Below are positions 17,937 to 57,129 of a DNA stretch of 64,000 nucleotides, piece after piece. The DNA lies in the NCBI GenBank assembly GCA_021234155.1, contig JAJEKV010000033.1:10796163-10860162 (forward strand), given 5' to 3'. The DNA comes from Isoetes taiwanensis. Its lineage: Eukaryota; Streptophyta; Lycopodiopsida; Isoetales; Isoetaceae. The position numbers were made by a program, and so were the translations under genes. Each line of letters begins with the position of its first letter. Position 1 is the stretch's first letter. The notes under the pieces were generated by a model. The model was not told the DNA's origin. It made no database searches and was given only the letters and a program-made list of their open reading frames with translations.

Positions 17937-17939
17937 TTT

Positions 17940-23172: not shown

Positions 23173-23609
23173 AGCAGCTCACAAGCTCGGGATAAATTTG
23201 CTCCATTGGAACTTCGTGCTCAAATGGGATCTTTGCAAATGAAGGTAAGTTGTCTAAATTTGAAAATCCTTGGGAAGGCCCTTACCAGATTGTAAGAGAA
23301 GCTGGCTGTTCATCTTATTGGCTTAAGGATCTCAAAACAGGTTTGGAATTACCCAATCCTACAAATATTCAAAGATTTGAAAAGATATTGGCCTCAACAT
23401 GCATGTTTAGGCCTTTTTGTTCTATATGAACATCTATTTTAACTTAAAATAGGTTAATTCTTGTTGGAAGTTGGAGATTTAAAATTCTTTTGATTGATTT
23501 TGTTTATTTCCTTGAGGCTTAAGTCAGAGATTTTGGTTGGTTGGAATTGCTAAATTGTTTCCGATTAGTTGTACTCAAGTTTCTTTATACTTGTGCCATC
23601 AAGACCATT

Positions 23610-24600: not shown

Positions 24601-25078
24601 TCAATGGTTGTATGAGCCAAATTTCTTGAATAGTAGAAGTTTAGTTAAATAGGGTAGAGATTTGCTATGCTTTAACAATTTTGAGTGTTGTCATTTCAGG
24701 TCCATTTGCTCATTACTCTTATTTGTCTTAAGTTGGCCTCTTTCCATCTAGCCCTTGCTTCCATATGAAATTTTCAGAGTGCTAATCCTACATTGTTACT
24801 CATCCCTTTATTTGGCACTCATGCTAATTTGATTATCATTGTCATATGCAGGTTCATCCACTTCTTCTCCATATTCACCTGTCTTGAGTTGTCCTACCCT
24901 CCATTTGATCTTATTTTTCTTATCACTCTCTCCATTACCTTATACTCGCCTCATATTTCCCACCACCTGCGAAAGTAATTCTATTCCCTCCACCACTTGT
25001 TGATATTTTGAAGACCTTCAGGTTAGCATTTCTTTCCTTTGAGGTGGGGACCAGCCTCATTCTTTCCTTTTGAGGAGA

Positions 25079-27527
25079 TGTTGCCCTTTTTGGGCAACAT
25101 GGACCATCATGATACCTAGAGTTTCAAGATTGGAAGATACTTGTCAAAGTTTGGAAGACTTGTGGTTTCTTTTGAGGTTTCATCTTAAGTTACTTTCTCA
25201 TCACTCATATGGTAAGAGTTAGTGCTATTTTGATCCTGCTAGAGTTTGGAAGAAATTGGTTCAAGTTTGGAAGACCCTTGGGATCTTGGTTGTATAGCCT
25301 AATTCTTTCCTTTGAGGAAGTTTTCTAGTTACATTCTTATTTCTTGAAGACCAGGCAAAGAATATTGCAAGCTATACAAGGAGTCATTACCATGTTGCTC
25401 ATATTCACTCATATGAAACTAAATGGAGTTGCACCCATGATTTGGAAGTCACACATATGAAGATGCACTTAGAAGTGGAATTGCTCTTATTTTGGCCTTG
25501 AAGATTGGAAGACCTTTTTAGAAGTTTGGAAGACCCTAGGGCCTTGAGCAAAGTTATGTTCATCATAAGGTATGATTTGAGCTTTTGAGATATGATCATG
25601 TGCTTCTCTGGGGTTCCAGCCTTCATCCATTTCATCCATCCTACATCCACCTTCCTTTCATTTTTTATATACCTCATTTTCACCCTGTCATGCCTTCTTT
25701 CATTACCTCACTACCTATATTTTATTGGCCTCACCTCCACTTGTGAATTGCTCTCAAGATATCATGAAAAACCTCAAGAGCAAAGAAGCTTGAATTTTAC
25801 CTTCATTCTATCACCCTAAATCCTACCATAGCCTTTTTTTTCCTATTTTTCCACCCTTTTCCTATGATTTTTCACCATTTCCAAGGTTGAAAATTCATTG
25901 ACCATGGTCAAAATGGCCAAAATTTCAAGTATCTCAATTTGACCTGAAAACACTCTAGATTTGAAGCTTGGCAAAAATAGCTAGGTTGGCCTTTTCAAAA
26001 TTCAAAAAGACATGGGAAACCCTCAAATATCATTTCTTGGGATGCGTGCCAAAAAATAAAAAACCTATTCTAGCCTATCTACCCTATCTAATTTTGCATA
26101 GTTCCGGTCACCCCCATTTTTCCACGTGGCGGCAGGGGGGGGCGGACACGGGCCGGGGGTGTCCCCTCTGCATGGCACGCATAAATTTAATAGCCGCTCG
26201 CATTATTCCTTATATACCTTAGCCGCCCGGACTTCGTTTGTGCCCTTTGGGATATATATCGCCCTTGAGAATTTTTTTGATAAACCCTAAGAAATAGAGG
26301 AACCTCGCTAAATCCGGCCAATTGCGTGCCTAAACCTGATTGAATCCCCGCCAATTTCCGCCGAAATTAGTTCCTAAACCTTTTCCTAAAACCCCTGGAA
26401 CCCTTTGTGGCACTTGATTGATAGAAACTTGCTCGATTAGGCCGGAAATCATTGAACCGAAATTTGGTTTTGGGAAGGACAGTTTTAATCTGGGAATACA
26501 GGATCATTTTTTACCCCCTCGGAGATATACCTCTGTGATGCGGGCGATTTCTATATTCCCCGATATTCTCTTGATCTGTTCTACCTCAAATTACGCTAAT
26601 CACCTTTCGAGATTGAAGATTGACCTATTTTGATTGAAGACCGACTCTGTTGTGACTTATTTGACATCAAAACTCCTCTTTGCTACTCAAATTATCTTAT
26701 TATTTTCTCTTTTCGATAATTTTGGGTTTTCGAGAAGTTGACAATGCCTTGGGATCTGTTCTCAAGCATTATCCTCGGTATTACTTCGAGAATTCTAAAC
26801 TCCTGTGATATCTTATGATTTGAATGCATATTCATTGCTGGACAAATAGTGTTTCCATCTTCTTTTGTTTCAAGTTGTTCTGCCTGTCTAAACTAATAGA
26901 AACCAGATATTTAAAGTAGAATCCAAATTAATAGTCGTGTCCCATTCTTTAAAAAGGTTTGAGTATTGCTTATATGTAAAGAAAACAAAGAAAAAAAATA
27001 GTTTTTCCATAACTGCCATAAATCGTGACGTAAATCGAGACTTTGGCCCATCTCAAGAAATATCATAGTGTTTGCTTGTCAAGAAAACCTTATGCACATG
27101 ATCTAGAGTTTATTTTGAAGTTGTTTATACAAATTCCAACTCAAGATTTATCACCAAACTATATTTGCAAATTTTGCTCTCTGTTTTGGCATTGACCAAT
27201 TTTGATCAACTTTGACATTGATTTTCTTGGTCTTCCCCTATCCAAATCGAGACAGACTTTCACCAGTAGTTCCCTCTACTTGTCTATAACTCATACCAAA
27301 AACCAAAACTCAAAAATCTTAAAGGGTGTGACTGCAAGATTGATTTTTGCTCTGACAGTTTTTTCTGCTTCAGGGACTGTAGTGATTTTGACAAAACCAG
27401 CATTTGAAATTGAGTTCTTTTGCTTTATATGATTAAGGATTGATCACCCTAAGTGATCTGGAGGTCCTGACCAGTTTGTTTACACTTCCTTTGAGGTTAG
27501 GCTAAAATTCCAGGTTTTAGGCTAACA
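25079..27527 (+). repeat. 3' LTR of the Tat-like element
   Basis: This 2449-bp copy pairs with the 5' LTR. Purine-rich sequence (GAGGTGGGGA near 25041 and TTGAGGAGA directly upstream) is the likely polypurine tract. Differences from the 5' LTR cluster in GC-rich spots (for example around 26100-26240) and include many one- to three-base indels. Confidence 0.92.
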
Positions 27528-31351: not shown

Positions 31352-32812
31352 TAAACCCACTAAACAACACAATATACAATATATGTACACAATATATAAT
31401 ATGCTCACGATGTACAATATGATGTGTCTTTGAAAGTGTAACCATTATAGTCGGGATTAAAAAACCTCGCCCTTTCGGGTTTTCGAGGAAAAACCCTAAC
31501 CATAATAGAAATACTAAACAAAGATCCTTAGCTGAACACAATTGAGCAACACAAAGAATGAGTCAATCATCATGCTTGAAAAAGCTGATAGTCATGATTC
31601 TCTGATCCTTGAATACACCAATACTTGATTCTCCTACACCAGGCTGAGAGAGCAGGAACAAGACTTGATCCTCCTACAACACAACTGATAGAGCAAGACT
31701 GCAACCACAAATCACGAGGCCATACCAGAAGCTTACGAACTACCAACCTGCACACGAAATGAGACTATTACATCAACCACATAGCCTAGCATAGAGCTCA
31801 CAATCTGCAACCCTCCACTGACCCGAGAGCTACAATCTCCAGCCTACTAAACTACGCACGAGGGCCTTTCACAACTAATAACCTAGGCACGAGGGCCTCC
31901 AATCTCACAACCAACCACTGGCACGAGGGCCACAAACACACAAACCTCCACTGGCACAAGGGCCACCATACACAAACCACAAGATCATAACCAATACTTG
32001 GCAAAGAGACATGAAGGCCTTTTATAATTAAGCATATTAATGCGGGCGGTAGGTGGGAAGATCAAGGTTTGCAGCAAACAGATGAACAGGAAGACACAGA
32101 TGTGCTGATGAAGCAGAAGAATGGAAAAGGGTTATATGGAGGGAGGAAACCTAACTAACTAGAAATCATGAAGAAACATCATAAGCTCATGAATCGTCAA
32201 TATACATATGTACTACAAGAATGGGGATATTATAACAATCACATTGTAAAAAAGGCCACAACCACACAATCAAATGCTTGGCACGACGCCCATGAACTCT
32301 CTGTCTCAAGGGCCATAATCTCACCACCACCATACTAACAGGCAGACCACAATGTAACACACCAACCACTGGCACGAGGGCCACCAGACAAACCATCCAT
32401 ATGCACGAGGGCCACAAATCGCAACCAAAATCCAAAGCAATGGATGTATTAGTATGAAAGCTATAAAACATGAGGATCTTATGTCAATGTTTAGAAGTGG
32501 CACAAGAGCCCCTCTAATAAAGCTAAGAACTTACAAAATCTGACATAACCAGAAGGTAAAGTGAGGGGCGGGTGGGTGGGAAGGTAGCTTGAAGAAAGAA
32601 CTGACAAGTGGAGAAACACAGAGATGAGCTGATGAAGATGAAAAGGAAGAAATGGAGTATATATGCAAGAAAAACCTAACTACCAAGGGAGTCTAACTAA
32701 CTAAAGGTAGCAATGGTTTCAAGAATTACATTTATCTTCTTATCGTGATACGAAGATAAATTCAATTCTCAAAACCAGCAAACAAAAGTGAAACACTAAA
32801 AGAAAGCCCCAT
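31352..32812. repeat. Array unit X1 (~1.45 kb), uninterrupted copy
   Basis: The unit begins CCACTAAACAACACAATATAC and ends near GAATTACATTTAT. It includes a TTATAGTCGGGATTAAAAAA segment, a minisatellite with the core GGCACGAGGGCC (about 31850-31990 and 32360-32410), and a CGACAAGTGGAGAAACA-type 3' part. It matches 36455-37408 plus 48203-48515 along its length. Open frames inside are low-complexity and not conserved. The type of element is unknown. Confidence 0.8.
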
Positions 32813-36454: not shown

Positions 36455-37408
36455 GTGTCTCCACTAAAACAACACAATATACAATATGATATGATGTGTC
36501 TTTTAAAGCGTAACCATTATAGTCGGGATTAAAAAACCTCGCCCTTTTGGGTTTTCGAGGAAAAACCCTAACCATAATAAAAAACACTAAACAAAGATCG
36601 TTAACTGAACACAATTGAGCATGACAACGCTTAAATGAGTCGATAATCATGTTTGAAAAACTGATAGAGCAAGACTGCAACCACAAATCACGAAGCCATA
36701 CCAGAAGCTTACGAACTATCAACCTGCACAAGAAATGAGAGTATTACAACAACCACATAGCCTAGCACGGAGCTCACAATCCGCAACCCTCCACTGACCC
36801 AAGAGCTACAATCTCACAACCAACTAAACTAGGCACGAGGGCCTTTCACAACTAATAACCTAGGCACGAGGGCCTCCAATCTCACAACCAACCACTGGCA
36901 CGAGGGCCACAAACACACAAACCTCCACTGACACAAGGGCCACCATACACAAACCATCTATACGCAAAAAGGTCACAAAATCATAACCAATACTTGGCAC
37001 AAGAGACGTGAAGGCCGTACATAATTAAGCATATTAAAATGGGCGATAGGTGGGAAGATCAAGGTTTGGGGCAAACAGATAAACAGGAAGACACAGATGT
37101 GCTGATGAAGCAGAAGAATGGAAAAGGGTTATATGGAGGGAGGAAACCTAACTAACTAGAAATCATGAAGAAAATACATATGTACTACAAGATGGGGATA
37201 TTATAACAATCACATTGTAAAAAAGGCCACAACCACACAATCAAATGCTTGGCACGACGCCCATGAACTCTCTGTCTCAAGGGCCATAATCTCACAACCA
37301 CCATACTAGCAGGCGGACCACCATCTAACACACCAACCACTGGCACGAGGACCACCATACAAACCATCCATATGCAAGAGGGCCACAAAATCGCAATCAA
37401 AACCCAAC
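36455..37408. repeat. Array unit X3, left part (split by the DNA transposon)
   Basis: This copy aligns with X1 from its start to about 32425, including TTATAGTCGGGATTAAAAAA and the GGCACGAGGGCC minisatellite (36830-36960, 37335-37390). It is cut at 37408 by the terminal inverted repeat of the transposon and resumes at 48203. Confidence 0.8.
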
Positions 37409-37439
37409 AACCATCATTCATTTAAATTGGATTTATGTC
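37409..37439 (+). repeat. Left terminal inverted repeat of the DNA transposon
   Basis: A 31-bp sequence starting AACCATCATTC, identical to the reverse complement of 48172-48202. Confidence 0.9.
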
Positions 37440-37585
37440 AGGATTTTGGACCATTTTGGCACTGCAACTTTTTCCCAGGTTAGTAAATTTACATCAAGAA
37501 TGTGACTTTTTTTATAACAGCACAACATGATTGCATTAAAAATTAAAAATATTTCACATATGCATGTCGAGTTACATATTGTCAA

Positions 37586-40497
37586 TTACTTCTCAGAAGT
37601 GACCCCTAGAGATATCATAGCTTTCTTCCTCACTTCCACAGGTATTATAACCCTAGCAGTCTTGCCTGGGATGACCTTTGGGGTCCATGAAAACAAAATA
37701 GTATCTAACTCAACCCAATCATCCCCTTCAATAGGGTTTCTCTTCCATCTCTTTGTCCAACAGTCTCTATACCTTTCTTCCTCTCCCATTTGCATTTAAC
37801 CGGTGCCTTTGGACACCACCACTCCACACGAACTTTGTTCACATTGCGGTCACCTACTTCTTTGCAAACCTCTGAGATGGTGTAACCCATCCACACAGGG
37901 TATATCTCTTTGCGCTCTGGTACTATAAGTGCAAATTGATGGCAAAGCAAGTCATCTTTGGGATCATAATCCTCCAGCCCGAGATATTTAGGCCTTCCTT
38001 TCCTAGGACCAACATAGTGTTTTTCAGCAGCTGGAGGAGCCATGGACTTGCGAATACTACTAACCACATCATCAGCTTCCTCAGGTGTTATCAAGTCTCT
38101 CCACCTAGTCTTTGGTAGCCATCCATCTTTGAGTTCATCATAGGATGTGTCTACTTGTCCCAATAATCCATGTACCTGTGTCCAATAATCTATCAATGCA
38201 AGGTTGGTATCATCGGGGTTATTTTTCCAATACTTGATGTATTCAGAAATGCCGTCCAATGTGCTTTGCAATGAATCCACCTCTGGAAAAGGCTTAAGAG
38301 CTTTTGGTTGACCCCTTGGAATCTTAGGTTTACCATTTTCATCTTAAGTGCCATATAGGTACTCCCTCATCCGCCTCCATTTATCATCCGAAGGTCTCAT
38401 CTTCCATTGCATGATTGGCTTATTTCCCATGACCCGAAAAGTGTCTTGAAGAGGTCTAGATTGACCTTCCATATCAAGAGCATAACCTTCGATAAAATTC
38501 TTCCAATCGGCACCTCTTGTATGATCAACCCTATAGGAGAAGGTGAAATGCATTCACTAAGAACTTCCATTAGTCTAGGAAGATTGGTCACGGTTTGAGA
38601 TTTCAATCACAAGACTATACTTCCCAAACAATGCATCCACATCCTCATGAGTATGTCCAGGCATTAAGAACCCTAAATTCACTCTTTCAAAGACACCCAC
38701 AACTGTTAAATAAGATAGGAATGAGAACATATACCTGTTTTTATTCTGTCCAGCACAATTGTCAAGTTGGAGGAGTAACCTTGGTGGTAGATCTCGAGGT
38801 TGGGGACGTGAACTTGAGGCTCCAACATGTTCAGAAGCACCTGACTTCCTAAACCTTGCCTTAGTAAACTTCTCTAAATTATTAGGCTTTCTATCCAACA
38901 ATGCACTTTGAGAGTGGTTGGCTACCACCTCCGGGTTGTGGAGGTCACCGAATAACCACTCTCATAGTTCCTCAAGCACCTCATCACACTTCCAATATGA
39001 AAATCAGGACCATCACTCCACAATTGCAAACTAAAATGGCCATAATAAATTGGCACCGAGCCATGCACTATTGCACCTGTCAGAGAGACTTGCAAAGGAT
39101 TAGCTCTATTGATTTGCTTGGGTATGTAACTATATTGTGGCAAACAAGTCTTCGATTGATCCATCTTGTCATGTATAATACAAACATAGTTATTGGGTTC
39201 CAAACATGATAATGTTCTCCACATCCAATAAGTGGATCTACATGATAGTTGGTCTGTCATGTGATCTTTCATTTGCTCCCTTATCTTAGCCCTTTGGCTT
39301 GGTTACTTGGTCTTATCAAGAATCTCTTTCAACTTAGCACACAAGTTGCACTTTGCAAAGTTGTTCAAGTGTCTATAGTGACATGCTTGAAGTGCTTGCT
39401 CCATAGTCTCATCGGTTGGGTTGAGATATTGCGTGTACACCTAGTTCTCGAAGCAAAGCATTCACTTCCTCCAATATGCTCTTACGGGTACAATGGGATG
39501 GCAATCTCTTCTCGACAACTATTTTTCCTGTTGATCTTTCCTACTTTTATGTGGCATATTCTCAAAGATTGAATTCAACATATTTTTCAAAAACCTCCCT
39601 AGCAGCCAGGATCCTAGAAGTTGGCCTCAACATGCCATTATTTCCATGTAATGCAATTTTACTCCCCTTTGCATGACTTGCTTGCCAATTTTGCCAAGAT
39701 GAAATTGGAATGCCATGAATATGTATCCATGCAACTTTACATATCCATGTCCCTAGCAGTAGGTATTTTTTTTTCTTTGGAAATTTTTCATCTTGAAGTG
39801 CAAGCTCATGAATGGAGTACATGTAAGTCCTCCTCTCATCACAAGTATACTCTTGGAAGGTGGCTCTTGCTTCCACCAATTCATCAATTTCAAACTTCTG
39901 AACACAATTAGCCCAACAACATTCCATTCCCCTTACCTTAGTTAGAGCTTCACGTGAACAATCACTACTTGACTTGGACCTCTTGCTAGGATAATGTTTC
40001 ACCACTGAGTGTGCCCTCTTCTCTGAAAATGTGGTCCTGGCAGCTATTGGAGGTGCATTAAGAAAATCAGTATCATCCACAACCTCTGGCTCTGGTAAAA
40101 GGAATTCTCCTATAAACTCAATGCAGGCTATAGGCCATGGCATGATGCATGGAACCTCCAATTGTTTAATACAAGCAGTGCAATCCTGGTGATTTGATCC
40201 TTTTTCCTTCCATTTTTCCTCTAAACTTGTTATGGCCACACCCACTTTATCCTCTCCTAACCTTTCATCATTGACAGTCTGGATAGGATCAGCTAGTATG
40301 ATAGTTCCTTCACCTACTAGCTCCTTATTGCATTGGTGCTTCGGTTTCACCTTCTTATTCTTCCAATCCAACCTCTTTGTAGGGATAATTTGCTTAGTAG
40401 TCTCGGCCTCAACACCCTTTGGGTGGTCCACAAAGATTGACCTACAAGAACAATGTTTACAATGGGGTAACAATGTGATAAGAACATGTGGTAACAA
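37586..40497 (-). pseudogene. DUF7869-like transposase, several stops and frameshifts
   Basis: The N-terminal frame (40497-39562) has a CCWANC cysteine cluster and a helical part ending REVFEKYVEF. A CNLCAKLK / REQMKDHM segment (about 39390-39260) is a likely zinc site. The catalytic region shows three acidic motifs in order: IHDKMDQSKT (Asp codon about 39170), LQLDNCAGQNKNR (Asp codon 38763) and GHTHEDVDALFG (about 38655-38620). This D-D-D/E-like series, with DN-x-GQNKN and GHTHED, matches proteins annotated as DUF7869 in mosses, lycophytes, ferns and other eukaryotes. The C-terminal part (38553-37586) continues in two more frames. At least three frameshifts and in-frame TGA and TAA codons are seen. 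The role as transposase is inferred from the motifs and from its place between TIRs. Introns could account for some breaks. Confidence 0.75.
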
Positions 40498-40559
40498 TGT
40501 TGAAACATGTTGGGGGATAGGTATTACATTTTTACCCTTTTAGGATCCACACGCTTCAC

Positions 40560-40960
40560 CTATATAAAGTGAAATGTCTTAATATTAGTTCAAAAAAAGG
40601 ACAAAGTAATTTTGAGAACCGATTAAAGGAACTTTAAGAAATACCAAAAACCATTAAATGGACAAATATATGTTTTAAGTGCAGCCAAAAATAGGTTGTA
40701 AGTATAGCTTAGGTGTAGGTAATTATTGCAAAATTAATGGTAACATAGGGTCTATGCTAGTAGTACTAATGAGGTAAGTATAGGTCGTAAATCTAGATGG
40801 GCCAAAGTTGGTTGTAAGTATAAATTTGGGGTCTAGGTAATTATACAAAATTAATGAAAATATAGGTTTTAAGTATAGCTGACATGTGGGTAATTCTATA
40901 GAGAATTAATGATAACCTAGAGTAATTAATTCAATAGAAGTAATGATAGGTAATTCGTAT
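40560..40960. repeat. Degenerate tandem repeats upstream of the transposase gene
   Basis: Imperfect units with TAGGTTGTAAGTATA, TAGGTAATTAT and CAAAATTAATG cores recur at about 40693, 40809 and 40866. They lie just 5' of the transposase start and may be promoter or transposase-binding sequence. Confidence 0.55.
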
Positions 40961-41123
40961 ATGATATAAATCTTGTATGATGTGATGGAATCATAATTAC
41001 AACCCCGCCCTATAAGAAACCTTGCATGCAACTACTCTATATCTTGCATGAAACCCTCCATTCTTTCAACCGCCAATCCTTTCTTCCTTCTAAGCCTTCA
41101 TTGATTTCTAAGCGCCTTCTACC

Positions 41124-41438
41124 ATGGTGAGCCATGCCGCATGGCCTCGTCCCGCTCCATCCATCCGGACTCCGAGAGGCCTCAGAGGCGATAAAAAAAA
41201 ATTGATAAAGAAATCCATTCCCCCCCCCCCGATGCCGTTGTGGCTGCCTTCCCGCACCACCCAGGATAATTCTCGAGGAGTTATTTCTGAGGCAAGCTTC
41301 GGGGAAAAGATTATCGAAAGCACCCGACTGAGCCACGAGTCCCCCATACTCCCCTTGATTCAGGATGAGGAGATGGAGAACGAGATTGAAAAGAAGAAGA
41401 AATGGAGGAAGCGGATGAAGAATGGCGGGAAGAATTAG
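41124..41438 (+). CDS. Unrecognised ORF between the transposase and companion genes
   Basis: A 104-codon plus-strand frame starts with a proline/arginine-rich part and ends in a strongly charged EEMENEIEKKKK tail. A further acidic or GAAGAG-repeat segment follows in other frames to about 41580. No family is recognised. Low-complexity composition makes chance opening plausible, and a minus-strand frame over the same purine-rich stretch is certainly a shadow. Confidence 0.25.
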   Translation: MVSHAAWPRPAPSIRTPRGLRGDKKKLIKKSIPPPPMPLWLPSRTTQDNSRGVISEASFGEKIIESTRLSHESPILPLIQDEEMENEIEKKKKWRKRMKNGGKN

Positions 41439-41727
41439 ACGAAGAAAAAAAAGCAATGATTATAGACGCCCTCTCCTCCTCAAGAGGCGAAGATGTTTGC
41501 CGAAGACATCCCCAATTAAGATGATGGATGAAAGCTTCGAGGAAGAAGAGGAGGAGGAAGAAGAGGAGGAGGTAGAGGGCTGAATTTTTTTTTTTTTTAT
41601 TTAGTTTTTGGTTCGTAAGAGCGGCCGGGCATCTCCAAAAAGGCCTCAAATGAGGATTATGAATGGAGCTAGGCATCTCCTTAAACCGCCTAGAACTTCG
41701 TAATTTTGTAACAATGAGAAATGGGGT

Positions 41728-41995
41728 AACTCTAATAAAAGGCCTTATGTAAAAATTTTCAATGGCAATACAAGGATTTACTGACTGTAATATGTTTCTT
41801 TAGTTTCTACTCTAACTTGAAAGCAAAACTGTAATTTCTGCAGAAGCTGCTTTTTAATTCCGCAACTCTAATAAAAGGCCTTATGTAAAAATTTTCAATG
41901 GCAATACAAGGATTTAATGACCGCAATATGTTTCTTTAGTGTCAACTCTAACTTGAAAAGCATAACCGTAATTTCTTGAAGTCGCTTTTGAATTC
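41728..41995. repeat. Tandem duplication, 136-bp period, two copies
   Basis: Both copies start AACTCTAATAAAAGGCCTTA (41728 and 41864) and run through GGCAATACAAGGATTTA to a TAACTTGAAA segment, with about 10% differences. Confidence 0.85.
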
Positions 41996-42009
41996 GGCTC
42001 TTTCATTCT

Positions 42010-42223
42010 TAATTTTGAGAGAGTGAAGTGAGATCCAGCCCGGTGAAATATGTTTGTGTGCAAAATGTTTAAATTGTCAAAGCGGTCAATACGCTGGCGT
42101 GAATTGCATCTGATAATTAGCTTTATGCGGTTCACGCCAGTATTGGACCCGCACAATGTAAACATTTTGCACACAAACATATTCGGCGCTACCGGCGTGA
42201 TTCCTCAACTCTCTCAAATTTAA
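42010..42223. repeat. Long hairpin with ~95-bp arms
   Basis: The arms 42010-42104 and 42130-42223 are inverted copies around a ~25-base loop. A 23-bp stretch around TTTGTGTGCAAAATGTT is perfect, and GGCGTGAA/TTCACGCC closes the loop side. It could be a small MITE or give a double-stranded RNA if transcribed. Confidence 0.8.
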
Positions 42224-43420
42224 AAATTACGATGCAAAGAAGAAATTACGATCGCTTTTAAAGTACAATACAGGATACACGCATGGCATTTAAATTACAA
42301 GTGAATGGTATTAGCTCATGGCGCGAAATCACTAATTTGTTTTTCTCTCTAACTTACAGATTTATGAATTCGGCGTCTGGCGCGTATTCAACTGAACATA
42401 CGCCTGGCGCGTATTCAACTGAAGTTCCTCCTTGCCAGCATAGGCTACAAGCATAAGCTTATTCAATGAGTAGTGTCGGCTCGAGGGGCTTGAAATGGAG
42501 AATGCTAAGGCGATAATTAGAGTTGTAGACCTCGAAGCCATTTTGGGTAATATCCCAATAGGCGCACCATCTTATTTGCCGAATCTTGTATGCGGTTTAT
42601 CTTTTTTCAACAAAGATTTGAGACTATTGTGCCAAAGATTTGAGACTCTTGAGGAACAACACGGATGAATAACACATAGATGAATAACACACGGATGTAA
42701 TTAAAACAATGTAAAGAATGCGGGTTTTTAAAGAATATCCCATCCATGTAGAGAATACGGTGTTTTTAAATTCACGAATGCTCGGGTCCGGGCCTTATAG
42801 TTTTGCAATATTGTATGAATGGTCCGGCATGCAAGCGTTTTTAATTTCATACATATGACGAATCAGCTTTGCATTTTAGTATGAGCACTCAATCTTCCTC
42901 TATGTCTTCCAAGAAAATGAAACTCACCTTCTTTAAGCGAATTACCATCATGCAACAAAGGTTCCGATGCTTTCACCCATGTGGTTCCATCGGGATGCCT
43001 TCGGTAATGCTTCGTCGTTGAAATGGCAATCGGTTACTAGAATCTTCACATGATCATTTCCAAGAGGAACTCCATGGCGATTGCTTCCGGATCGATGATT
43101 CTATCTTGCAATTTCCCACCCTCCTCTTCAAATTAAATTAAATCGACATGTAGCATTCTTCTCCAACGCCGCTCAATGTCGCAAGATCATGGGATTAATT
43201 TGGAGCTTGGGTTCTGAAGAGTAGATGAACTTACATGAAGGCGACGACATCGCCAGCGCCTTCTTCCCGTTCTTAGAAGTTCTTTCGAGTTCTTCCTGTT
43301 CTTCCAAGTTCTTTCGAGTTCGAATGACAAGAAAGGCTGGCGGCAAGATTAGGTGGTAGTTTCAAATTATCCATTAATTGTACTGCTTTTCTAGCCGAAA
43401 GTGAAATCTAATTATGGGAT
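42224..43420. other. Non-coding interior of the transposon
   Basis: A GGCGCGTATTCAACTGAA unit occurs twice at 42378-42425. A CAAGTTCTTTCGAGTTC-type repeat occurs near 43270-43325. No gene was recognised. Confidence 0.4.
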
Positions 43421-43506
43421 TTGACAATACGACGGTTAGAGAGCCATTTATTTGCTTTCGTGCGATCGCGTCCCCGGCCCATTAGGCCCAATCGTAAGTT
43501 TGCTAA

Positions 43507-43692
43507 CCGTCGTTTAAAAGTCGATCCGCGAAATTTAAATATCCGCTCCCTTCTATCGGACCGTCGATTAAAAGTCGATCCGCGAAATTTTAATAACCGC
43601 TCGCTTCTATCGGACCGTCGATCAAAAGTCGATCCAATGAAACCCGTCGATCGAAAAGTTTCCCCTAACCGCCTTATGGAAATCTATATAAG
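43507..43692 (+). promoter_or_regulatory. Upstream tandem repeats and TATA box of the companion gene
   Basis: A 54-bp unit starting CCGTCG occurs at 43507, 43561 and partly 43615, each with AAAAGTCGATCC. A TATATAA box follows at 43685-43691. About 630 bp downstream a TTTGCAG acceptor-like site (ending 44316) precedes the first ATG, suggesting a spliced leader. This layout looks like a promoter with repeated upstream elements. Confidence 0.55.
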
Positions 43693-44336
43693 TTTTTGAA
43701 TTCTATTTCTTGCTTTTTTATTGTCGACTTGCTCCGGGGACGCTCAAGAACTCCGGGCACTTTCGGGAACTCAAGAACTTCAGGCGCTCAAGATCATCGC
43801 GAAGATGCAGCCCAAAGGTCGTCTTTGCTCCAAACTCGGTAGGGCGCGAGAAGATGCTCAAGGTCGGTAGTGTCATCATTACGTATGTTATTCATTCATT
43901 GTTCATTGCTCTGTATTTCTTTGTATTTCTTGTATTTTGCTCAGTATCTTCGCCTATACTCCCGTCTATTATTTACGTAGCGTGCTGACTTAAATTTCTA
44001 TAGCTGCTCACACTCCTGTCTATCATTTCTTTAGCTGCTCATTTCTGCAGCGACTTGTATTTGCATCTGCATAATAAAAGTCCTTCCTGTGTTAAATTGT
44101 CCTGCTCGTGATTAACTGTTCTATCTATAATTTATAAAGTAGTATGACCGTGTTTAGTTGGCATGCCTTCGAGTGTCTGTTCGGCATGCTGTAATTGGCA
44201 CGCCTTATGAGTGCATGTCTGTAATTGGGGACTGTATGCCATTCTGTACTTTAGCCTGGCCGGAATTGATGACCACCCGAAATCGCGCTAAGCGTGTATT
44301 GCACCCTCGTTTGCAGGGAAGAAGAGACAAAACCGA

Positions 44337-46346
44337 ATGGTAGCTCCTACACCTCCTCCTAAGAAAGCAAGAGGCTCGGAAGATACTCCAAGTGAGCTCC
44401 AGCTCACAGAAGAAGGGAAAGCCCAATGAGGACGCAGTATCCTATGCATTGTCGATGGATGATAGCGGATCCATTATCAGAAAGGGAACCGAGATCCTCC
44501 ATGCCCCGAGGAGAAGATGGATGACAGTGTGGAGTGGTATGTTGATGTAGGCAAAACAAATGGTAAGGTGGATCTTGTGTTACACTCCAGAAAGAAAGAG
44601 ACCGAGCTTATGAAGAAACAAGGTATTCTTATCACTTATGAGGAGCAGGATGACATATGTTGTCAACTCCTAGTGGAGGTTGTGAAGAACCACAAGAAAG
44701 ATCTCGTCGATTACACATGCCGGGCAAAATCGCTTTCAAAGATGGTCTGATGAAGAAGGGCGTGAGTCTTGAGTCATGTTTCAAAATACGGATGGCCTCA
44801 AAATCATCCCTCACTCCGGTTTCTATTAGTGAAGGGGTGTATGCAGCGTGAGGAGAGCTTTATGAGGACCTTCTCCAAGTTACTACCGGAGGAGATGAAG
44901 CATCAAAATGATATCGGGGATGTCACGAAGATTGCTTTGGACTTAGGAAAGGACATCCCCGCCGAACAATTGATGGCATTTTGGCAGAAAATGACTCAAA
45001 AAGAAATTGCAGCCGGAGGCAATGAGTAGGCTAGTCAAGTATGCAACAACTACCCACTTGGCCAATCTTTTACACATCCCATCCATGTTGACCGTCTGGT
45101 GAGATCACATAAGTCAAGTCTTGTTAGCGGGAGGTATGACCCCGAGCATGCAAGAGAAATATTGAGGGCGATGGTGAGGAATCTAGGCCAAGTTCCTATG
45201 CCACCGGCGTGCTTCCTTGGGATAAGAAAAAGGATGCTCCACTCCAAAGGGACAACACTAGAAGAGCTAACAGTGGAGAACCCTAATGTATGCTTCCTTA
45301 TTATTGACTGGACAAAGATTCTATTGAGGCACAACGATCCCTATCCAACCAGGCTAAGCAAACCGGACAAACAATGTATCTCAAGCACATTACAACCCAC
45401 GAGGGAGGTGTCGGTTTCTAAGCCTCCATACCCTACTTGCAGAGGACCCAGCGAGAGATTAGTGCAACATTGAACGAAATGGGGAAGTCTTTCTTTATAA
45501 AAGGTTAGTATATTTGGTGGAATAGAGTCGATATATCCAAAGAAGCATCCCGGGAGTGAAGTAGACGCCACGACCGCTACTCATGGATGACGGCGACGAT
45601 GAAAGGTAATTCACGCTAGGGCGCGATATGCTTATTTATGAAGGATAAAACGCCGCTTTGGCAGTATTGCAGAACACTTTTGCATGGCTAACTCTTTGTT
45701 TTCCATGGTTCGGGCCTCCACCGCTTGTGACAAAATCATTGTCTTGATCTGAATGGTGTCCTGTGTAAAACGTTTCCTAAGAAGCTTATTAACAGGGGAT
45801 GACTTGAGCAAGTCCCTCTAGAATCGAATACTAAGTGGATCTATCCTCGTCCACACTTAGAAGATATGATGAATGAGGCATTGATTGTTTCGAAGCCGCC
45901 ATCCGGTCCTCAATGGAACGCAAAATGTTGATGAAGTACTTAGGGTGTTACCGGGCATGAATCGAGACTTTGTGACGATTTGGGATCAAAGTAAGTGTAT
46001 AAAGTTTCCACATCCAAGAGATCCGGATGGCAAACCGGTCTTCGTGAAACATCTTGGTACTATGATGGATCAGCTTGGCATTCAAAAGAAAGAGGACATC
46101 ATAATAGTAGATGATGCTCTTAAGTGCTTTTATAATCAAGGTCAGGCTCTAAATCCACTAACTTATACTCCACAAGATTACTCAACAGATGAGTTTCTAG
46201 TACTATTCATGTCCATCATGAGTGGCTTGGCTTCTGGTAAAACAGTATCAGATGTTGTCAAAACGCATCCAGAACTAGATCGGACTAAGGAGATGGATCC
46301 CTATCTGGAGAGTTATTTGACAAAGAAAGGACTAGTCCCTCCATGA
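44337..46346 (+). pseudogene. Unrecognised companion gene of the DNA transposon
   Basis: Coding-like sequence continues for about 2 kb on the plus strand, split over three frames. The first ATG (44337) gives MVAPTPPPKKARG, a basic nuclear-signal-like start. Later segments include a charged block with LVEVVKNHKKDLVDYTC (near 44665-44720), LPEEMKHQNDIGDVTKIALDL (near 44880-44940), a part with HPIHVDRLVRS and LGQVPMPPACFLGIRKRM (45075-45235), and an open 153-codon end (45888-46346) with RDPDGKPVFVKHLG and EDIIIVDDALKCFYNQ. I do not recognise the family. The HVDRLVRS...G-x-V-x-M-P-P pattern faintly recalls ParB/Srx-type domains, which is inference only. Several frameshifts break it. Its place inside the TIRs, facing away from the transposase, suggests an element-encoded accessory protein or a captured host gene. 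Confidence 0.5.
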
Positions 46347-46397
46347 TGTAATCTTCATATCAAGTGAATACAATGTAAAAAGTGTTCTGTGTATATT

Positions 46398-47990
46398 TGT
46401 GATGTTCCAGCATAATATACGCCCCAATACGTATATTATACTGCCACGTCATACGTACATGTCACAAGTGATATGTACTTGAGAGTAGGACAACGTTGCA
46501 CCTAGGAGCTAAAGGTTGCACCTAGGGGGCAACCTTGGATGTTGGGTATGTAATTAAACATACACAACAAAAGGTTCCTTGTTCATCCATTTCCAAATGG
46601 CTTAAAGCCATTTGCCCATATGGATGCCCTAACCTAGATAGGGTCTATATAAGGGCTAAAACCCTAGACCTAGCTCTCCTTTCACTTTGCCAATTAGGGT
46701 TTTCTAGAGCTTCCTTTCCTCTTTCGCATTCAGGGCTTTCCTGGGCCAATTCGGCCAAGGTAAGGTTCGAAATCGCATTGCCAGGCTCCGAAAAGTCGGA
46801 TTTGCACAACAGGTTGCTGAGTAGCAGCTGTCTTCGGCAAGATCAGGAGCATGGACGCCTTCCGAGGATCAGGAGCAAGCCAAGGAGCAGGTATCTAGTT
46901 GTTCTGTTGTGCAAAACCGTCTTTAGGCGTGGCAATATGCCGGTTTAGTATGTTAGATCATCTCTGGAAGCCTTGTAGATCCCTAGATCTGAGACTCTAA
47001 TGAATGAACCTAACATTGGATGTTAAGTAGATAGATTGATATGATTCTCTATCTCTGTTCTGTGATATTGCATGTATTCCACTCTGTGATCTCCTTGTTG
47101 TGGGAAGGGGGGTAGAGACCTAAAGGCTGTGTAGAAGATGCTCCTAGCATAGCACCTTAGTTCCCACATAATTGCGGCCCGTGCACAGGAGCCCACCTGG
47201 CTGTGGGTGAAGGGGCAAGGCCGGTTGATAAGGAGGAACTTGTCTCATCGCGGACTGACCCCTCTGGTAGTAAAGCCTATCGGGGGTCTTTGCTGGCTAG
47301 GCTTAATGGCTTGTCACTGCGTGTGGGCAAGGCATGAGCTCGACACTCGTGGGGTGGTGGATATGACCTTCCAGTGAGTTCAAGTCGAATAAGGGCAGTG
47401 GCCCTCTAGCAGCCTGCGATGAGCATGGATACCTCTGGAGGAGAGGCAGCTCTCTTCCTGCCTCATCGGGGTTGGGGAGATGCAACCCAGCAGTAGTAGC
47501 CCCTCCGCTATTCACCCCAAGAGGCTACGCCAAGTCCCAACACTTTTAGCCTACTCTGCAAAGTGTGCACCTGAGGGGCGGATGGAGTGGTCTACCCTAA
47601 GCCATGTTCTATGCCAGCCAAATCCATTGCCATGAATTACATGCGCAATGAACTCGGAGGCCCTAGCCGTCGGGTCATCCCCTTGAGTCCGAGCCACGGT
47701 AGGATCTCTCCTTTGTATTATTGTTATGAAGGTATTGCTGACTCTGTGATGTTGCTATTGTTATGGTGATTGTGTTGTATATTATTGGTTGTGCTCACGT
47801 TTGTTGTTACGCTTCCGCAGATAGGTCGATCCGATGGAAGACGGATGAATGACACATCCACTCTTCCCTTGCTGGCTCTGCCCCCATGGGAGTGGAGTCA
47901 GGTGGATGGCCCCTGTCAGGCAGCTGCCAGGGGGAATGCTCCTCCTTCGAGTACGATGCGGGCATCGTATAAGGAGTAGGGGACGTCACA
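46398..47990 (+). mobile_element. Solo LTR, 1593 bp, with 5-bp TSD
   Basis: The LTR starts TGTGATGTTCC and ends GGGGACGTCACA, so its ends are inverted. The TSD ATATT flanks it at 46393-46397 and 47991-47995. A TATATAAG box is at 46646. No internal gag-pol is present, so it arose by LTR-LTR recombination. Its 3' part matches the LTR fragment at 63691-64000 (opposite strand) in the segments ACGCTTCCGCAG, CCACTCTTCCC and GTAGGGGACGTCACA. It lies 51 bp after the stop of the companion gene. Confidence 0.9.
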
Positions 47991-48171
47991 ATATTGATGT
48001 GTTGTTATCTACAAATGCTATTGAAACACCACATTCTTCTCACTAAAACAAGAAAATGTTAAACCACCCACTACTACAATGCAAAAATTTGCAACAATGC
48101 AAAACAGCATGTCACACAACAAAACACTATATTGAGAAAAGGGTATGCAAAAGTGGCGTGCTTTTGGAACA

Positions 48172-48202
48172 GACATAAATCCAATTTAAATGAATGATGG
48201 TT
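48172..48202 (-). repeat. Right terminal inverted repeat of the DNA transposon
   Basis: This is the perfect inverted copy of 37409-37439. Beyond 48202 the X3 array unit resumes. Confidence 0.9.
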
Positions 48203-48515
48203 CAAAGCAAAGGATGTATTAGTATGAAAGCTATAAAACATGAGGATCTTATGTCAATGTTTAGAAGTGGCACAAGAGCCTCTCTAATAAACTAAGAACT
48301 CACAAAATCTGACATAACGAGAAGTTAAAGTGAGGGGTGGGTGGGTGGGAAGGTAGCTTGAAGAAAGAACCGACAAGTGGAGAAACACAGAGATGAGCTG
48401 ATGAAGATGAAAAAGAAGAAATGGAGTATATATGCGAGAAAAACCTAACTACTAAGGGAGTCTAACTAACTAAAGGTAGCAATGGTTTCGAGAATTACAT
48501 TTATAACAGTACACG
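48203..48515. repeat. Array unit X3, right part
   Basis: It matches 32430-32745 nearly base for base (AAAGCTATAAAACATGAGGA core, GAGATGAGCTGATGAAGATGA). It is followed by a GAAATGCGTTACAA-type motif cluster at 48516-48615. Confidence 0.85.
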
Positions 48516-50948: not shown

Positions 50949-51522
50949 TGTTGGAAGATATGAATTCTTCCAAGTCATCTGAGACAAGAGAATCTGAATC
51001 ACAATATAAGAGTGCACAGATGCAGATATACTCATATGGGTTACATTAGAGCATCAAATAAACGAGAGCATATTTTAACCTATGGTCTAAGGTTGTAGTT
51101 AATGGTTGAATTGTAAAACCATTGAGTCGAAATATGGGATCGAAGTTGTAAACGGTGGATGGAATATAGGTTTGAAAATGGAAAGATGACGAATAGATAA
51201 GCACCGAAGTGCTATTGCGATGGCGACTGCAAAGCGGCCGGATCTGCACCATTCGGTGAGGTCTGGCCCTATAAATCAACGAGAAAACTAGAGGAACTTG
51301 AGCTGGAGACATATGCGAATGTGTTAAAGGTTGAATGCTTGTGCTTTCGGGGTTCTAGCTTCAGTAATTGAGTTAAGGTTCTAATGAACAGTGCTTTATT
51401 CAATGGGTAAAGATTAATGGTATGATTTCACTATTGAATGCAATTGATATACCATTGCTAGAGTAAGTCTAGTTAGTCTTAGTCACTATTGAATTTGTTA
51501 GTTAACCATTGAATTATCTTCA
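50949..51522 (+). repeat. 5' LTR of the Ty1/copia element
   Basis: It starts TGTTGGAAGATATG and ends ATTATCTTCA. A CCTATAAAT-like sequence (near 51269) may serve as TATA box. The minus-strand 88-codon frame is present in both LTRs only because they are near-identical; it is not a gene. Confidence 0.95.
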
Positions 51523-51544
51523 ATTGGTATCAGAGCTAACAACT

Positions 51545-52830
51545 ATGACTACGAGACTGGGTGCATCTTTATTGAGTGCAGTAGAAGTGTTCAAAGGCAC
51601 AGGGGGCTTCCAGGTATGGAAGGAAAAGATCAAGGAGATCTTGGAAGTGGAGGGCCTTTGGCCCTATGTTGGAGAAGATGCTGGCAGTAATGAAGTCAGT
51701 GGTACAGCTACCACAGTTACCTCTGCAGCAGATGAAGGTTCCAGCTCTGGAGAAGTTGAGGTAACCAGCTCGAACATTAATGCCAAGTTAATTGAGGCTA
51801 AGAGTATTGTTACAGTTAAGTTGAGTCCTAGCATTTTATTGAAAGTGAGGGGAATGAATCCTAGAGCAATCTGGAAATATTTTATAAAAACTTATGAAAA
51901 TAAGACCTCATCCCAGTTAGATGTTCTTGATAGAGAACTCAGAAATCTGAAGTTTCATGAGAAGGATGATATAACAGACTTTTTTCAAAGGTTTGACAAT
52001 TTGATTAGGGGTTGTAATAACTAATGAACACCAAGTAATGTCAATTGCCCGAGCATTCTCTGATTATGACCAGCTATCCACATTAGTCAGAAACATTGCC
52101 AAATCAAGGGAAGATGCAGAATTAATGGTTAAGACAGAATTGGAACAAAAGAAATTATTAGGAGAATATGATGAACAATCTGAGGTCTTGTATGTTGGAA
52201 AAGCAAAGGGCAGGTTTGAGAAAAGTAAAATCGGACCATGTTATCATTGCAATAATTATGGGCACTTAAAATATAACTGCCCTAAGCTAGCAAAGGACAA
52301 TAGGTGCTTTAATTGTGATGGGCTGGGGCATCAAGCAGCAAATTGTTCTAGCCCTAAAGACTTTGCAAAAGGAAGAGGAAGAGGAGAGACAAAGGGAAAT
52401 GGAAGAGGAAGGTTTAATAATAGAGGAAGACGCAGGGGAAGGAATACATCTGCTGTAAATCTAACAAAGGAGGTTAGCAACTCAGAAAAGGAGGAAGTAG
52501 ACGAGAATGAAGAGGTAAGGGAGAAATGTTTTAGTACTTTGACTGTAAATGAGACTAAGAATAATAATGACTTGCTTGTTCTAGATTCTGGAGCTGAGAG
52601 ATGCGTAATCAAACAAGCAAGTCAACTTAAAAACAAGACAAGGAGAAACTCAAGCTACATACAACTTGGAGATGGGAAATTGCAACAAGTAGAAGAAGCT
52701 GGAATGTTGGAGATTTTTGATTTGGCTGAAAAACCTGTAGAACTCAGAGATGTCTTATATGTACCATCAATTATCAAAAATTTAATTTCTGTTAGCCAAT
52801 TGGTTGATCTCAGGGTACAAAGTATGTTTT
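51545..52830 (+). pseudogene. gag and protease of the Ty1/copia element
   Basis: The likely start is the ATG at 51545 (MTTRLGASLL), 8 bases after the primer site. The capsid part contains FQVWKEKIKEILEVEGLWPYV, as in copia Gag, and FFQRFDNLIRGC. A frameshift occurs between 52010 and 52040. Two zinc knuckles follow, CYHCNNYGHLKYNC and CFNCDGLGHQAANC, then a glycine/arginine-rich stretch (GRGRGETKGNGRGR). The aspartic protease begins with LLVLDSGAERCVI, carrying the D-S-G triad. Another frameshift lies near 52810, after which sequence of the pre-integrase region (AREWHERLSHTH) leads to the solo-LTR insertion. Confidence 0.85.
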
Positions 52831-52985
52831 GAAAAGACACATTGTAATATTTTTCTTGGCAATGAACTAAAGTTTTTGGCAAAAAGAGTAGGCAGTTTGT
52901 TTGCACTTGATAAAATCAACGTTGAGGGCAATATTAATTTGGTTACTGCTAGAGAATGGCATGAAAGACTCAGCCATACTCATAT

Positions 52986-53577
52986 TGTTTGGGGTCTGGG
53001 TTCGGGAACTCCTGCAAGAAAGCCCTCTGTGAGGACCCTTGGATCTAACAGGAGAATCCGGGGGACTATGTCACGCGGGATTTGCAAGAAAAGAACAAGA
53101 AGAAAACAGAACAAGAGAGAACAGTGAGAGGAAAATGATAAGCTTCCTTGATATCAATGATGAACATACATGAACTCTCGCAATCGAGAGAAGACTGAAG
53201 AGAGACAAGACTCAAAACTCATCTAAAAACTCATGTGCTAGCTCTACTCATATATATAGTACAATGGCCTTTGGCCCAATATAGACACCCTGACTGATCT
53301 CGGTGCCGACTCCTGGAAGGAGGCCTGATTTGCAGGAATGTTGGCGGTGCCTCTTGAAGTGCCTAGAATCACGCTGACGCTGACGCGGGCGGTGACGGGC
53401 CATCACTTGTCTGAGCGGCGCCTCTTGTTGACGGACGCAGGCTTTGACTGCGTGGTCTGCTGCTTGGTCTTCTGCTGAGCCTTTGATGGCTGACCCATGC
53501 CCGTCTGTGGATCCTTGAGCTTGACCTGGTCCGTCGTATGCATGAATAGTCCTGAACCAGGAGGCACAAGACTAACA
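52986..53577 (-). mobile_element. Ty3/gypsy solo LTR (592 bp) nested in the copia integrase region
   Basis: The TSD CATAT flanks it at 52981-52985 and 53578-53582. Removing the insert and one TSD restores an uninterrupted LSHTHMNN reading of the copia pre-integrase domain. On the minus strand it starts TGTTAGTCTTGTGCC and ends CCAAACA, and it has the same length and overall sequence as the LTR at 58722-59313. It therefore belongs to that gypsy family and inserted after the copia element. Confidence 0.92.
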
Positions 53578-54264
53578 CATATGAACAACATAAATTATAT
53601 GATTAAGAATGGGATGATTGTAGGAGAAGAACAAAAGGATCACTTCCTTTGTGAAGGATGCCTTTTGGGAAAGCATACAAGATTTAGTTTTAAGAGGTCA
53701 ACAAAAAGGGCAAAAGGGATTTTAGAGCTCATACACACTGATTTATGTGGCCCAATTAATGTGACTAGCATGACAGGGAAGAAGTATTTCATAACATTCA
53801 TAGATGATTACTCACGGAAAACTAAATGCTATATTCTAAGGCACAAAGACCAAGCTTTCACAGCATACAAATTGTTTGAGCAAGAAATGGAGAGACAAAC
53901 TGGAAGAAAAATCAAATGTGTGAGATCTGATAGAGGGGGAGAATTTCTCTCAGGGGAATTTAAAAGGCATTGTAAACTTAAAGGGATAAGAAGGCAACTA
54001 ACCTGCAGGTACACACCTCAGCAAAATGGAGTGGCAGAAAGAAAGAACAGGACAATACTAGATGCAGTTCGATCCATGCTAAAACACTCAGGTATGCCAA
54101 ATTTTTTATGGGATGAAGCAGTTAAAACTGCTGTGCTAATCCAAAATAAAGTGCCTTCCTCATCTATCAATGGTAAAACCCCTGATGAGATGTGGAATGG
54201 CAATGTGCCTTCATATGAAATGTTCAAAGTTTATGGATGTATGGGTTTTGCTCATTGTTCCTAA
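53578..54264 (+). pseudogene. Integrase of the Ty1/copia element
   Basis: The GAG-pre-integrase zinc region ends with CEGCLLGKHTRFSF. The catalytic core shows LIHTDLCGP, VRSDRGGEF and NGVAERKNR, giving the D-D-E triad in the expected order. The frame shifts near 54255 within the FKVYGCMGFAH segment, just before the C-terminal domain. The 5' end of the integrase is separated from the rest by the solo LTR. Confidence 0.85.
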
Positions 54265-56353
54265 GGAACTCAGAAAAAAATTAGATGACATGGCTATAAA
54301 ATGCTTCCTAGCAGGCTATGACGAGCAAGCAAAGGCATACAGACTGTTTGATGCGTCTAAAAGGCAAATCATTGTTAGTAGAGATGTGGTATTTGATGAG
54401 AACACGCTCTACAAAGACAGAAATAAGATAATAGATCATAGGGGAATGGATATGACAGATTTAAATGACAATGAAGAGGACACACAGGGTAATGTAACTG
54501 CTGATATAGATAGTGAAACAGAAAATGAGGAGGCATCAGAACAAAGAAATGCAACAAATGATGAAGACATTGAACATAAGGAGAATGTACAAGAGCTAGA
54601 ACAGGTTGGAAAACACACAAGGAAAAGGAAATCTGAAGTGGAAAAGCTCAAAGGGGAACTGAAAATAGATGCAGGTGAATATGGCAGAACCGAGCAGGGA
54701 AAAAGCAAAAGACTAATTAATGAGCCAGTGGATATAAATCAGGTGATGGCAATATTTGAACCAAAGGTTCCATTGAATTATGAGGAGGCTTTGCAAGCTG
54801 AAGAATCAGAATTATGGAAGCAAGCTATGAATGAGGAAATAAATGCTTTTGTTAGAACAAACACATATCAGGTTATGCCAAAACCTGACAACAGAAATAT
54901 TATAGGATGCAAGTGGATATACAAACTTAAAACTGGGGCAAATGGGGAGCAGAAATACAAGGCCAGGCTAGTTGCACAAGGGTTTACACAAAGAAAAGGT
55001 TTGGATTATGATGAGACATTCTCACCTATTGTAAAGTTGACAAGCATAAGGATTTTATTAGCCTATGCAAATGCAAACAGTTTGGAAGTGCATCACATGG
55101 ATGTGAGCACTGCCTTCTTAAATGCTGAAATTGATGAGGAAGTATACATGAAGCAACCACTTGGGTTTGAAGATGAGAAGGAAAATATGGTATGGAAACT
55201 CAACCGAGCTGTTTATGGCCTAAAGCAGTCACCAAGGTTATGGTATAAGTGCATAGACAAATACTTGCAAGAACAAGAATTTACTCAATTTCTGAATGAT
55301 GGAAACATGTACATTTTGAACAGGGGTGATCAATTTTGCATCATCGCACTATATGTGGATGATAATATTATGGTTGCAAGTGACATGGATATCTTAAACC
55401 ATTGCAAACAAATACTCTAGAACAGATACCAAATGGTGGATCTAGGGGAATTAAAAAGGTTTCTTGGGATGGAAGTAAACAGGGACAAAAGAAAGAAAAG
55501 ATTGACAATTACACAGACGTGTAACATTCAAGGGATGCTCAAAAGATTTAACATGGCAGAATGCAATGTATCAAGAACTCCAATATCACAGGGACTCAAA
55601 CTTTCATCAGAAATGAGTCCTAAGACTGAACAAGAAACAGAGCAAATGGCAAATGTTCCTTATAGGGAACTAATTGGGTGTCTCCTATTTGTATCAAATA
55701 GCACAAGGCCAGATATAGCATTTACAGTAAGCTTACTAAGCAGATTCAGCAATAATCCTGGATACCAACATTGGAGTGCAGCTAAAAGGGTATTGAGATA
55801 TCTCAAACATACCATGCATCATGGGCTGACATACTCGAATGATAACTTGACATTAACAGGATATGCAGATGCAGACTGGGGAAGTGATTTAGACACTAGA
55901 AAATCAACTTCAGGGTTTTGCTTGATGCTAGGAGGAGCAACTATTGCCTGGAAGAGCAAGAAACAAACTTGTGTGGCTATGTCAACAGCTGAAGCTGAGT
56001 ACAACTCAGCAACGTTGGCAGCAAAAGAAATAGCATGGACCAGACGCCTTCTAGAAGAACTCAAGGTATGTCAAAGCTTGCCTACAGTATTGTTTTCGGA
56101 CAGTTTAAGTTGCATAGCTATTACCAAAAACCCAGTGCTTCATCAAAGAACCAAGCACATTGAATTACATGTCCATTTTATTAGAGATTTGGTTGCCAAG
56201 AACATTATTACAGTACAGTATATTGGAACAAATGAACAAGTTGCAGATGTGTTGACAAAAGGGTTATCAGAGATCAAGTTCTCAAAATTTAAAAGTGATA
56301 TGGGAGTTATAGATTTTCATCAGGGTAAAAAGGTTAACTTTGAAGATAGCTAA
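54170..56353 (+). pseudogene. RT and RNase H of the Ty1/copia element, one in-frame stop
   Basis: RT starts after an acidic linker: WKQAMNEEINAF, CKWIYKLK, YKARLVAQGFTQ and DYDETFSPIVKL are copia RT motifs, and the active site YVDDNIMVAS is at about 55355. A TAG at 55418-55420 ends the first frame, but the same frame reads on (MVDLGELKRFLGMEV), so a single nonsense change separates the halves. RNase H follows with GYADADWGSD, STAEAEYNS and FSDSLSCIAI, all acidic residues present, and ends at 56353. Reverse transcription would need both parts in one protein. Confidence 0.88.
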
Positions 56354-56555: not shown

Positions 56556-57129
56556 TGTTGGAAGATATGAATTCTTCCAAGTCATCTGAGACAAGAGAAC
56601 CTGAATCACAATATAAGAGTGCACAGATGCAGATATACTCATATGGGTTACATTAGAGCATCAAATAAACAAGAGCATATTTTAACCTATGGTCTAAGGT
56701 TGTAGTTAATGGTTGAATTGTAAAACCATTGAGTCGAAATATGGGATCGAAGTTGTAAACGGTGGAGGGAATATAGGTTTGAAAATGGAAAGATGACGAA
56801 TAGATAAGCACCGAAGTGCTATTGCGATGGCGACTGCAAACCGGCAGGATCTGCACCATTCGGTGAGGTCTGGCCCTATAAATCAACGAGAAAACTAGAG
56901 GAACTTGAGCTGGAGACATATGCGAATGTGTTAAAGGTTGAATGCTTGTGCTTTCGGGGTTCTAGCTTCAGTAATTGAGTTAAGGTTCTAATGAACAGTG
57001 CTTTATTCAATGGGTAAAGATTAATGGTATGATTTCACTATTGAATGCAATTGATATACCATTGCTAGAGTAAGTCTAGTTAGTCTTAGTCACTATTGAA
57101 TTTGTTAGTTAACCATTGAATTATCTTCA
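56556..57129 (+). repeat. 3' LTR of the Ty1/copia element
   Basis: A 574-bp copy of 50949-51522 with five substitutions, all in the first 350 bp. Confidence 0.95.

Follow-up and report, generated by a model that had tools for sequence, protein, structure and literature searches.

Genes and boundaries of the element

Within a 64,000-nucleotide stretch of the Isoetes taiwanensis genome (assembly GCA_021234155.1, contig JAJEKV010000033.1, positions 10,796,163 to 10,860,162; hereafter the window) lies a DNA element, at positions 37409-48202, that encodes a protein with a DUF7869 domain. The element is bounded by terminal inverted repeats (TIRs) of 31 nt that are 100% complementary, and no third site with up to three mismatches was found in the window or in 100 shuffles. 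Two large divergent genes, each with its end near one TIR, occupy the element (Table 1). The stop codon of the DUF7869 gene (37586-37588) lies 177 bp from the left end, and the second, companion gene stops about 260 bp short of the right end once a solo long terminal repeat (LTR) is discounted. A third, small acidic gene likely lies between them. The region between the divergent genes also holds a long imperfect palindrome (42005-42227).

The flanks of the element revealed its insertion. The left flank (36659-37407) aligns with 31683-32435 at 89% identity, the right flank (48203-48504) with 32433-32735 at 96%, and both matches abut in a paralogous locus. Because this locus contains the empty site, the element ends could be fixed. 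The length of the target site duplication (TSD) in the window was set from the 4-bp TSDs of other family copies. Perfect TIRs and an insertion documented by an empty-site copy had been described in an earlier note, made from the window sequence alone, and both are confirmed here.

The window copy is dead. It carries frameshifts, has lost a companion-gene segment of about 2.2-2.6 kb near 45545 compared with ten other copies of the family (see below), and has received a solo LTR with the termini TGTGATGTTCC and GGGGACGTCACA, which was matched in none of these ten copies. A stretch at 63691-63876 is 70% identical to the end of this LTR. Since the LTR was gained and the companion gene segment was lost, 10.8 kb, the size given in the earlier note, is not the natural length of the element: the bounds stand, and the seven longest of the ten copies measure 11.0-11.8 kb.

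Table 1. Features of the element and of its insertion locus (window coordinates).
Feature	Position	Strand	Details and basis
Paralogous insertion locus without element	31683..32735	+	empty site 32433-32436, CAAA
Left TSD	37405..37408	.	CAAC, one base off CAAA; flank joining and empty site
Left TIR, 31 bp	37409..37439	+	inverted-repeat match; host-genome sites within 3 mismatches
DUF7869 (probable transposase) pseudogene	37586..40450	-	frameshifts and stops, 5' end approximate; frames, Pfam PF25273
DUF7869 core	38623..39179	-	motifs IIHDKMDQ.. 39138-39179; LLLQLDNCAGQNKN 38737-38778; MPGHTHEDVDALFG 38623-38664
Small acidic gene (likely), decayed	41124..41583	+	open reading frames in copies C834 (157 aa) and C556 (151 aa)
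Companion gene, decayed	43805..46346	+	start guessed; frames, copy comparison, Pfam NIF
Companion, ParB-like motif region	~45040-45320	+	motif lead
Companion, C-terminal NIF/HAD domain	~45740-46346	+	
Solo LTR, later insertion	46398..47990	.	1,593 bp; TSD ATATT 46393-46397 / 47991-47995
Right TIR, 31 bp	48172..48202	-	inverted-repeat match to left end
Right TSD	48203..48206	.	CAAA; flank joining and empty site

The element belongs to a very abundant family

We searched the host genome (1,658,258,908 bases, 1,110 contigs) with the TIR 31-mer, allowing up to three mismatches. This revealed 1,332 forward and 1,351 reverse sites (about 2,680 in 1.66 Gb), and none with the reversed control. Pairing was analyzed for the first 100 of these sites, all of them perfect; mismatched partners would be missed. 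Forty-six of the 100 sites form 23 convergent neighbour pairs less than 60 kb apart, of which 18 span 9.1-15.8 kb and five 23-34 kb, with none shorter, and three neighbour pairs had the same orientation.

Ten of the 18 pairs, with lengths of 9.1-11.8 kb, were compared with the window copy. All ten align to it in parts of both genes, with 89.7-94.5% identity over aligned columns. Nine are flanked by an exact 4-bp TSD (AGTA, ATAG, ACCT, TTTA, CTAT, CCAA, GCAA, TAGC, CTGG), and the tenth has an imperfect one (GAAT versus TGAAT). Nine copies each cover 96-100% of the DUF7869 core (C60, 77%), 96-100% of the NLI interacting factor (NIF) region of the companion (C35, 43%) and 97-99% of its ParB-like part (C236, 16%). 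Neither the transposase nor the companion is read as one open frame in any of the ten, the longest frames being 403 and 550 aa. The additional TIR sites, the constant TSD length and the retention of both genes (in all ten copies, two of them partially) bear out what the earlier note had raised for other copies. We conclude that the element at 37409-48202 is a decayed member of a DNA transposon family with a very high copy number.

DUF7869 is a probable transposase core shared with bacterial elements

The DUF7869-like protein proposed from its motifs was recovered by Pfam PF25273, with an E-value of 1.4e-24 in a single open frame (38575-38961) and of 4e-30 on a read-through of the window gene. 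A sequence search of PDB chains with the plant core gave nothing useful (one match at E 7.4). Bacterial relatives were found by scanning one genome per species in 84,980 prokaryotic species for the peptide pattern DNCxGQNKN. Twelve stretches matched and 11 of them encode DUF7869; L006 was rejected as a chance match to the pattern. All ten proteins scanned exceeded the Pfam cut-off, as did L011 in a later scan. None of the bacterial proteins matched an NCBIfam model.

TIRs surround the gene in eight of the ten loci examined (L003, L005, L007, L008, L009, L010, L012 and L014), those of L005 being only 75% complementary and the frame of L008 being shortened. At L004 and L011, which both have short frames, no TIRs around the gene were found among the five longest inverted-repeat pairs. 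L013 is cut by a contig end and stands outside this count. The bacterial elements measure 2.0-3.5 kb, their first bases being GGGG or similar, and those of 2.0-2.3 kb hold little besides the DUF7869 gene between their TIRs. With tips set by eye, 15 of 16 flanking 4-mers read AWWT (P about 1e-18 by base composition), and left and right 4-mers are identical in only three of eight elements. This pattern was noted before the comparison with PMC3627910, though not wholly independently of the idea of an AT-rich Sola2 site. At L009 (1-3672), a Thiomargarita contig, a 75-bp sequence is found at one contig end and, inverted, at the other, and it adjoins the element's right TIR; this reflects either repeat collapse or a real junction.

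When a profile of the bacterial proteins was aligned with the plant protein (81.9 bits), two collinear segments matched, together about half the length of the profile; they span the N-terminal Cys region and the two later catalytic motifs. Among the 11 bacterial proteins D445 and D487 are invariant and D366 is nearly so; in the plant protein the first catalytic Asp falls outside the alignment and the third lies in a low-confidence stretch. The predicted structure of the bacterial core resembles retroviral integrase; the RNase H-like fold that the earlier note had suggested looking for is thereby predicted for a bacterial relative. This predicted fold is shared with retroviral integrase and Mos1 transposase, whereas the plant core lacks a PDB sequence match and the catalytic triad is probably Asp-Asp-Asp (DDD) and not Asp-Asp-Glu (DDE). 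DUF7869 is thus the probable transposase core of plant and bacterial elements. The 4-bp TSDs, the fold and the bacterial TIR loci give the domain the job foreseen for it, as part of a TIR-bounded DNA transposon.

Scans of viral contigs returned two and then 24 pattern matches, none confirmed as DUF7869, and one further scan was empty; two viral contigs with DNESGQNKN were rejected as chance motifs. Phage and plasmid records gave no DUF7869 match.

The companion ends in a NIF/HAD domain

The earlier note had seen a second gene in the opposite direction without assigning it. The gene is real, and the last ~200 residues of its protein form a NIF/HAD domain. This domain, that of the NLI interacting factor-like phosphatases FCP1, SCP and UBLCP1 (PF03031), is weak in the window (E 9e-4, below the Pfam cut-off), but three other copies have it in an open frame and above the cut-off (E 3e-11, 3e-15 and 5e-16). 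Unlike these phosphatases, the companion has Asn for the second Asp of the DxD motif where the motif is readable: DLNGVL stands where DLDxT is expected in five of 11 copies (window, C35, C435, C556, C834), C937 reads RSN, and the canonical motif occurs in none of the 11. Because of this replacement the domain may be devoid of phosphatase activity. The VDDDAL motif is intact in other copies. Sequence comparison of the C-terminus with PDB gave weak matches to UBLCP1 (E 0.033) and an SCP-like protein (E 0.53), and none with the decayed C-terminus of the window copy itself.

In the companion this domain is part of a longer protein, the rest of whose sequence is unrecognized; in C937 the frame pieces of the companion measure 120, 170, 550 and 200 aa. 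The IDGQHS and ISPPGEP/GGYIGREAL stretches are reminiscent of ParB-like and methylase motifs, a likeness confirmed by no tool. A Pfam scan for such parts gave no match, and PDB searches with these readings returned only the EbrA repressor (E 0.14). An AlphaFold2 single-sequence model of the 550-aa part was unusable (pLDDT, the model's confidence score, 35).

A codon-position test was applied to five parts, counting informative sites at third positions (p uncorrected). The small acidic open reading frame (ORF) gave the clearest signal (54/105, p = 1e-4). Counts were 48/120 for the transposase, 61/152 for the 550-aa part of the companion (p = 0.047), 15/35 for its NIF part (p = 0.16) and 12/42 for its ParB-like part (p = 0.79). 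The bias was not significant when the test was run on private changes.

Other DUF7869 genes and neighbouring retroelements

A DUF7869 search of the Isoetes genome gave 9,902 first-look candidates, of which 150 were scored; all 150 lie above the cut-off (best 1.7e-52). One of them, at L078 (3049-6009), is an intact 987-aa ORF of another family, so further DUF7869 families are present beside that of the window. A second ORF diverges from it. The 987-aa ORF may have been domesticated, or it may belong to a recent element. Many AAGTGTATTCCGGAATACACTT palindromes lie upstream of it, and a neighbouring gene presumably encodes a proteasome alpha subunit.

Two retroelements were recognized by eye in the window. 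The region 15489-27527, with two 2.45-kb direct repeats (95% identical) and an integrase-like frame (22024-23172), appears to be a nearly complete Ty3-type element. Long Ty1/copia-like gag-pol frames at 51506-56353 lie between 574-bp repeats (50949-51522 and 56556-57129, 99% identical), the probable LTRs of what looks like a young element.

Discussion

We consider it likely that the inactive copy in the window represents an abundant family of DNA transposons, with Sola as the most probable superfamily and the DUF7869 protein as the transposase. This reading draws on the TIR pair, the 4-bp TSD, the large family, the bacterial homologues inside their own TIRs and the RNase H-like fold predicted for one of these. 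Elements of the hAT, KDZ and Zisupton groups have 8-bp TSDs, which the 4-bp TSD does not fit. Academ elements have 3-4 bp TSDs and encode an XPG nuclease and a helicase; no Pfam match to either was obtained in the frames scanned, a subset of broken frames.

The Sola superfamily has been known since 2009 (PMC10741241, PMC3627910). The passages on Sola in a review (PMC10741241) and a table (PMC9033089) list a DDD transposase, a 4-bp TSD, TIRs of 11-1124 bp, bacterial and animal members and a moss representative. In that review the elements measure 2-9 kb, some more than 15 kb, and occur in plants, animals and bacteria, being uncommon in flowering plants (PMC10741241). For Sola2, the relevant passages of PMC3627910 give AWWT as target preference and describe elements of Dictyostelium/Polysphondylium that carry Fanzor1 as an extra gene. 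The plant family shares with these descriptions its TIRs, whose 31 bp fall within the range, the 4-bp TSD (exact in nine of ten copies; CAAC/CAAA in the window and CAAA at the empty site) and the combination of plant members with bacterial ones (11 DUF7869 loci). A DDD transposase, suggested by the conserved Asp residues of the bacterial proteins, is probable. The flanks of the bacterial elements match the AWWT sites of Sola2. Because of the conserved Asp residues, the 4-bp TSDs, the bacterial members and these AWWT flanks, we place the family in Sola by published descriptions, with high but not full confidence. The new or little-known transposon type suggested in the earlier note is not supported, the features fitting a known superfamily. 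New here are the role for DUF7869 and the companion-bearing variant; the NIF/HAD companion and the small acidic gene do not appear in the Sola descriptions cited. The Sola2-Fanzor1 elements likewise combine a Sola transposase with an unrelated second gene between TIRs, but that gene is Fanzor1 (PMC3627910), whereas the second gene of the present family has a NIF-type HAD domain at its end. The word Sola is absent from the main text of the I. taiwanensis genome paper (PMC8566536). A literature text search gave no match for DUF7869 or PF25273 (motif-string matches look like chance), and nothing that links NLI interacting factor with a transposon and terminal inverted repeats.

Several points weigh against this placement or its generality. 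Target duplications like CTGG, GCAA and ACCT show no AWWT preference among the plant copies, the likeness to Sola is one to published descriptions, and Pfam attaches no transposon name to DUF7869. At L078, the one other DUF7869 gene of the genome checked for TIRs, no recognizable pair was found. The first three would suit DUF7869 elements that form a separate, unnamed superfamily parallel to Sola, also with 4-bp TSDs; we regard this as unlikely, given that TSD length, bacterial and plant members, the probable DDD core and the bacterial AWWT flanks match the Sola and Sola2 descriptions. That the compared copies keep both genes would also fit the companion as transposase and DUF7869 as a passenger. 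The bacterial elements of 2.0-2.3 kb, with little beyond the DUF7869 gene, and the predicted RNase H-like fold of its product make this highly improbable.

The role of the companion is more evenly balanced: it may serve transposition or targeting, or it may be cargo. That the element once picked up a host or foreign gene and has since carried it passively is a real possibility, if a little short of the favoured one. Host genes often encode NIF/HAD domains, the DxD motif reads DLN in the five readable copies, RSN in C937 and is canonical nowhere, and the codon-position signal of the companion is weak in all parts tested. The Fanzor1 of Sola2 elements is a precedent for an extra gene. Against cargo stand the presence of the companion in all ten compared copies, its end mirroring that of the transposase at the opposite TIR, and its length, which is not that of a short fragment.

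Under the favoured Sola reading, the DUF7869 transposase would bind the 31-bp ends, cut them using its three Asp and insert them into the target at cuts staggered by 4 bp, whose repair would create the TSD. The companion accompanies the transposase and, at a guess, probably aids transposition or its control. More speculatively, and with considerable doubt, this may be a Sola lineage with three genes, where both the small acidic protein and a ParB-like/methylase-like/NIF pseudo-phosphatase fusion are dedicated to transposition. They might, for instance, bind RNA polymerase II tails and so guide the element into transcribed chromatin, an arrangement that would have brought it to thousands of copies in one lycophyte.

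These results raise the question which job a phosphatase-like protein of the type acting on polymerase C-terminal domains has within a transposon. They connect the plant family with small insertion sequences of bacteria (Desulfobacterales, Thiomargarita and others) that match no NCBIfam model. While the passages on Sola in the review call the superfamily uncommon in flowering plants (PMC10741241), a single Isoetes genome holds 9,902 first-look DUF7869 candidates, 150 of them scored. With DUF7869 as a probable transposase core, proteins with this domain that have been taken for host genes could be recognized as mobile.

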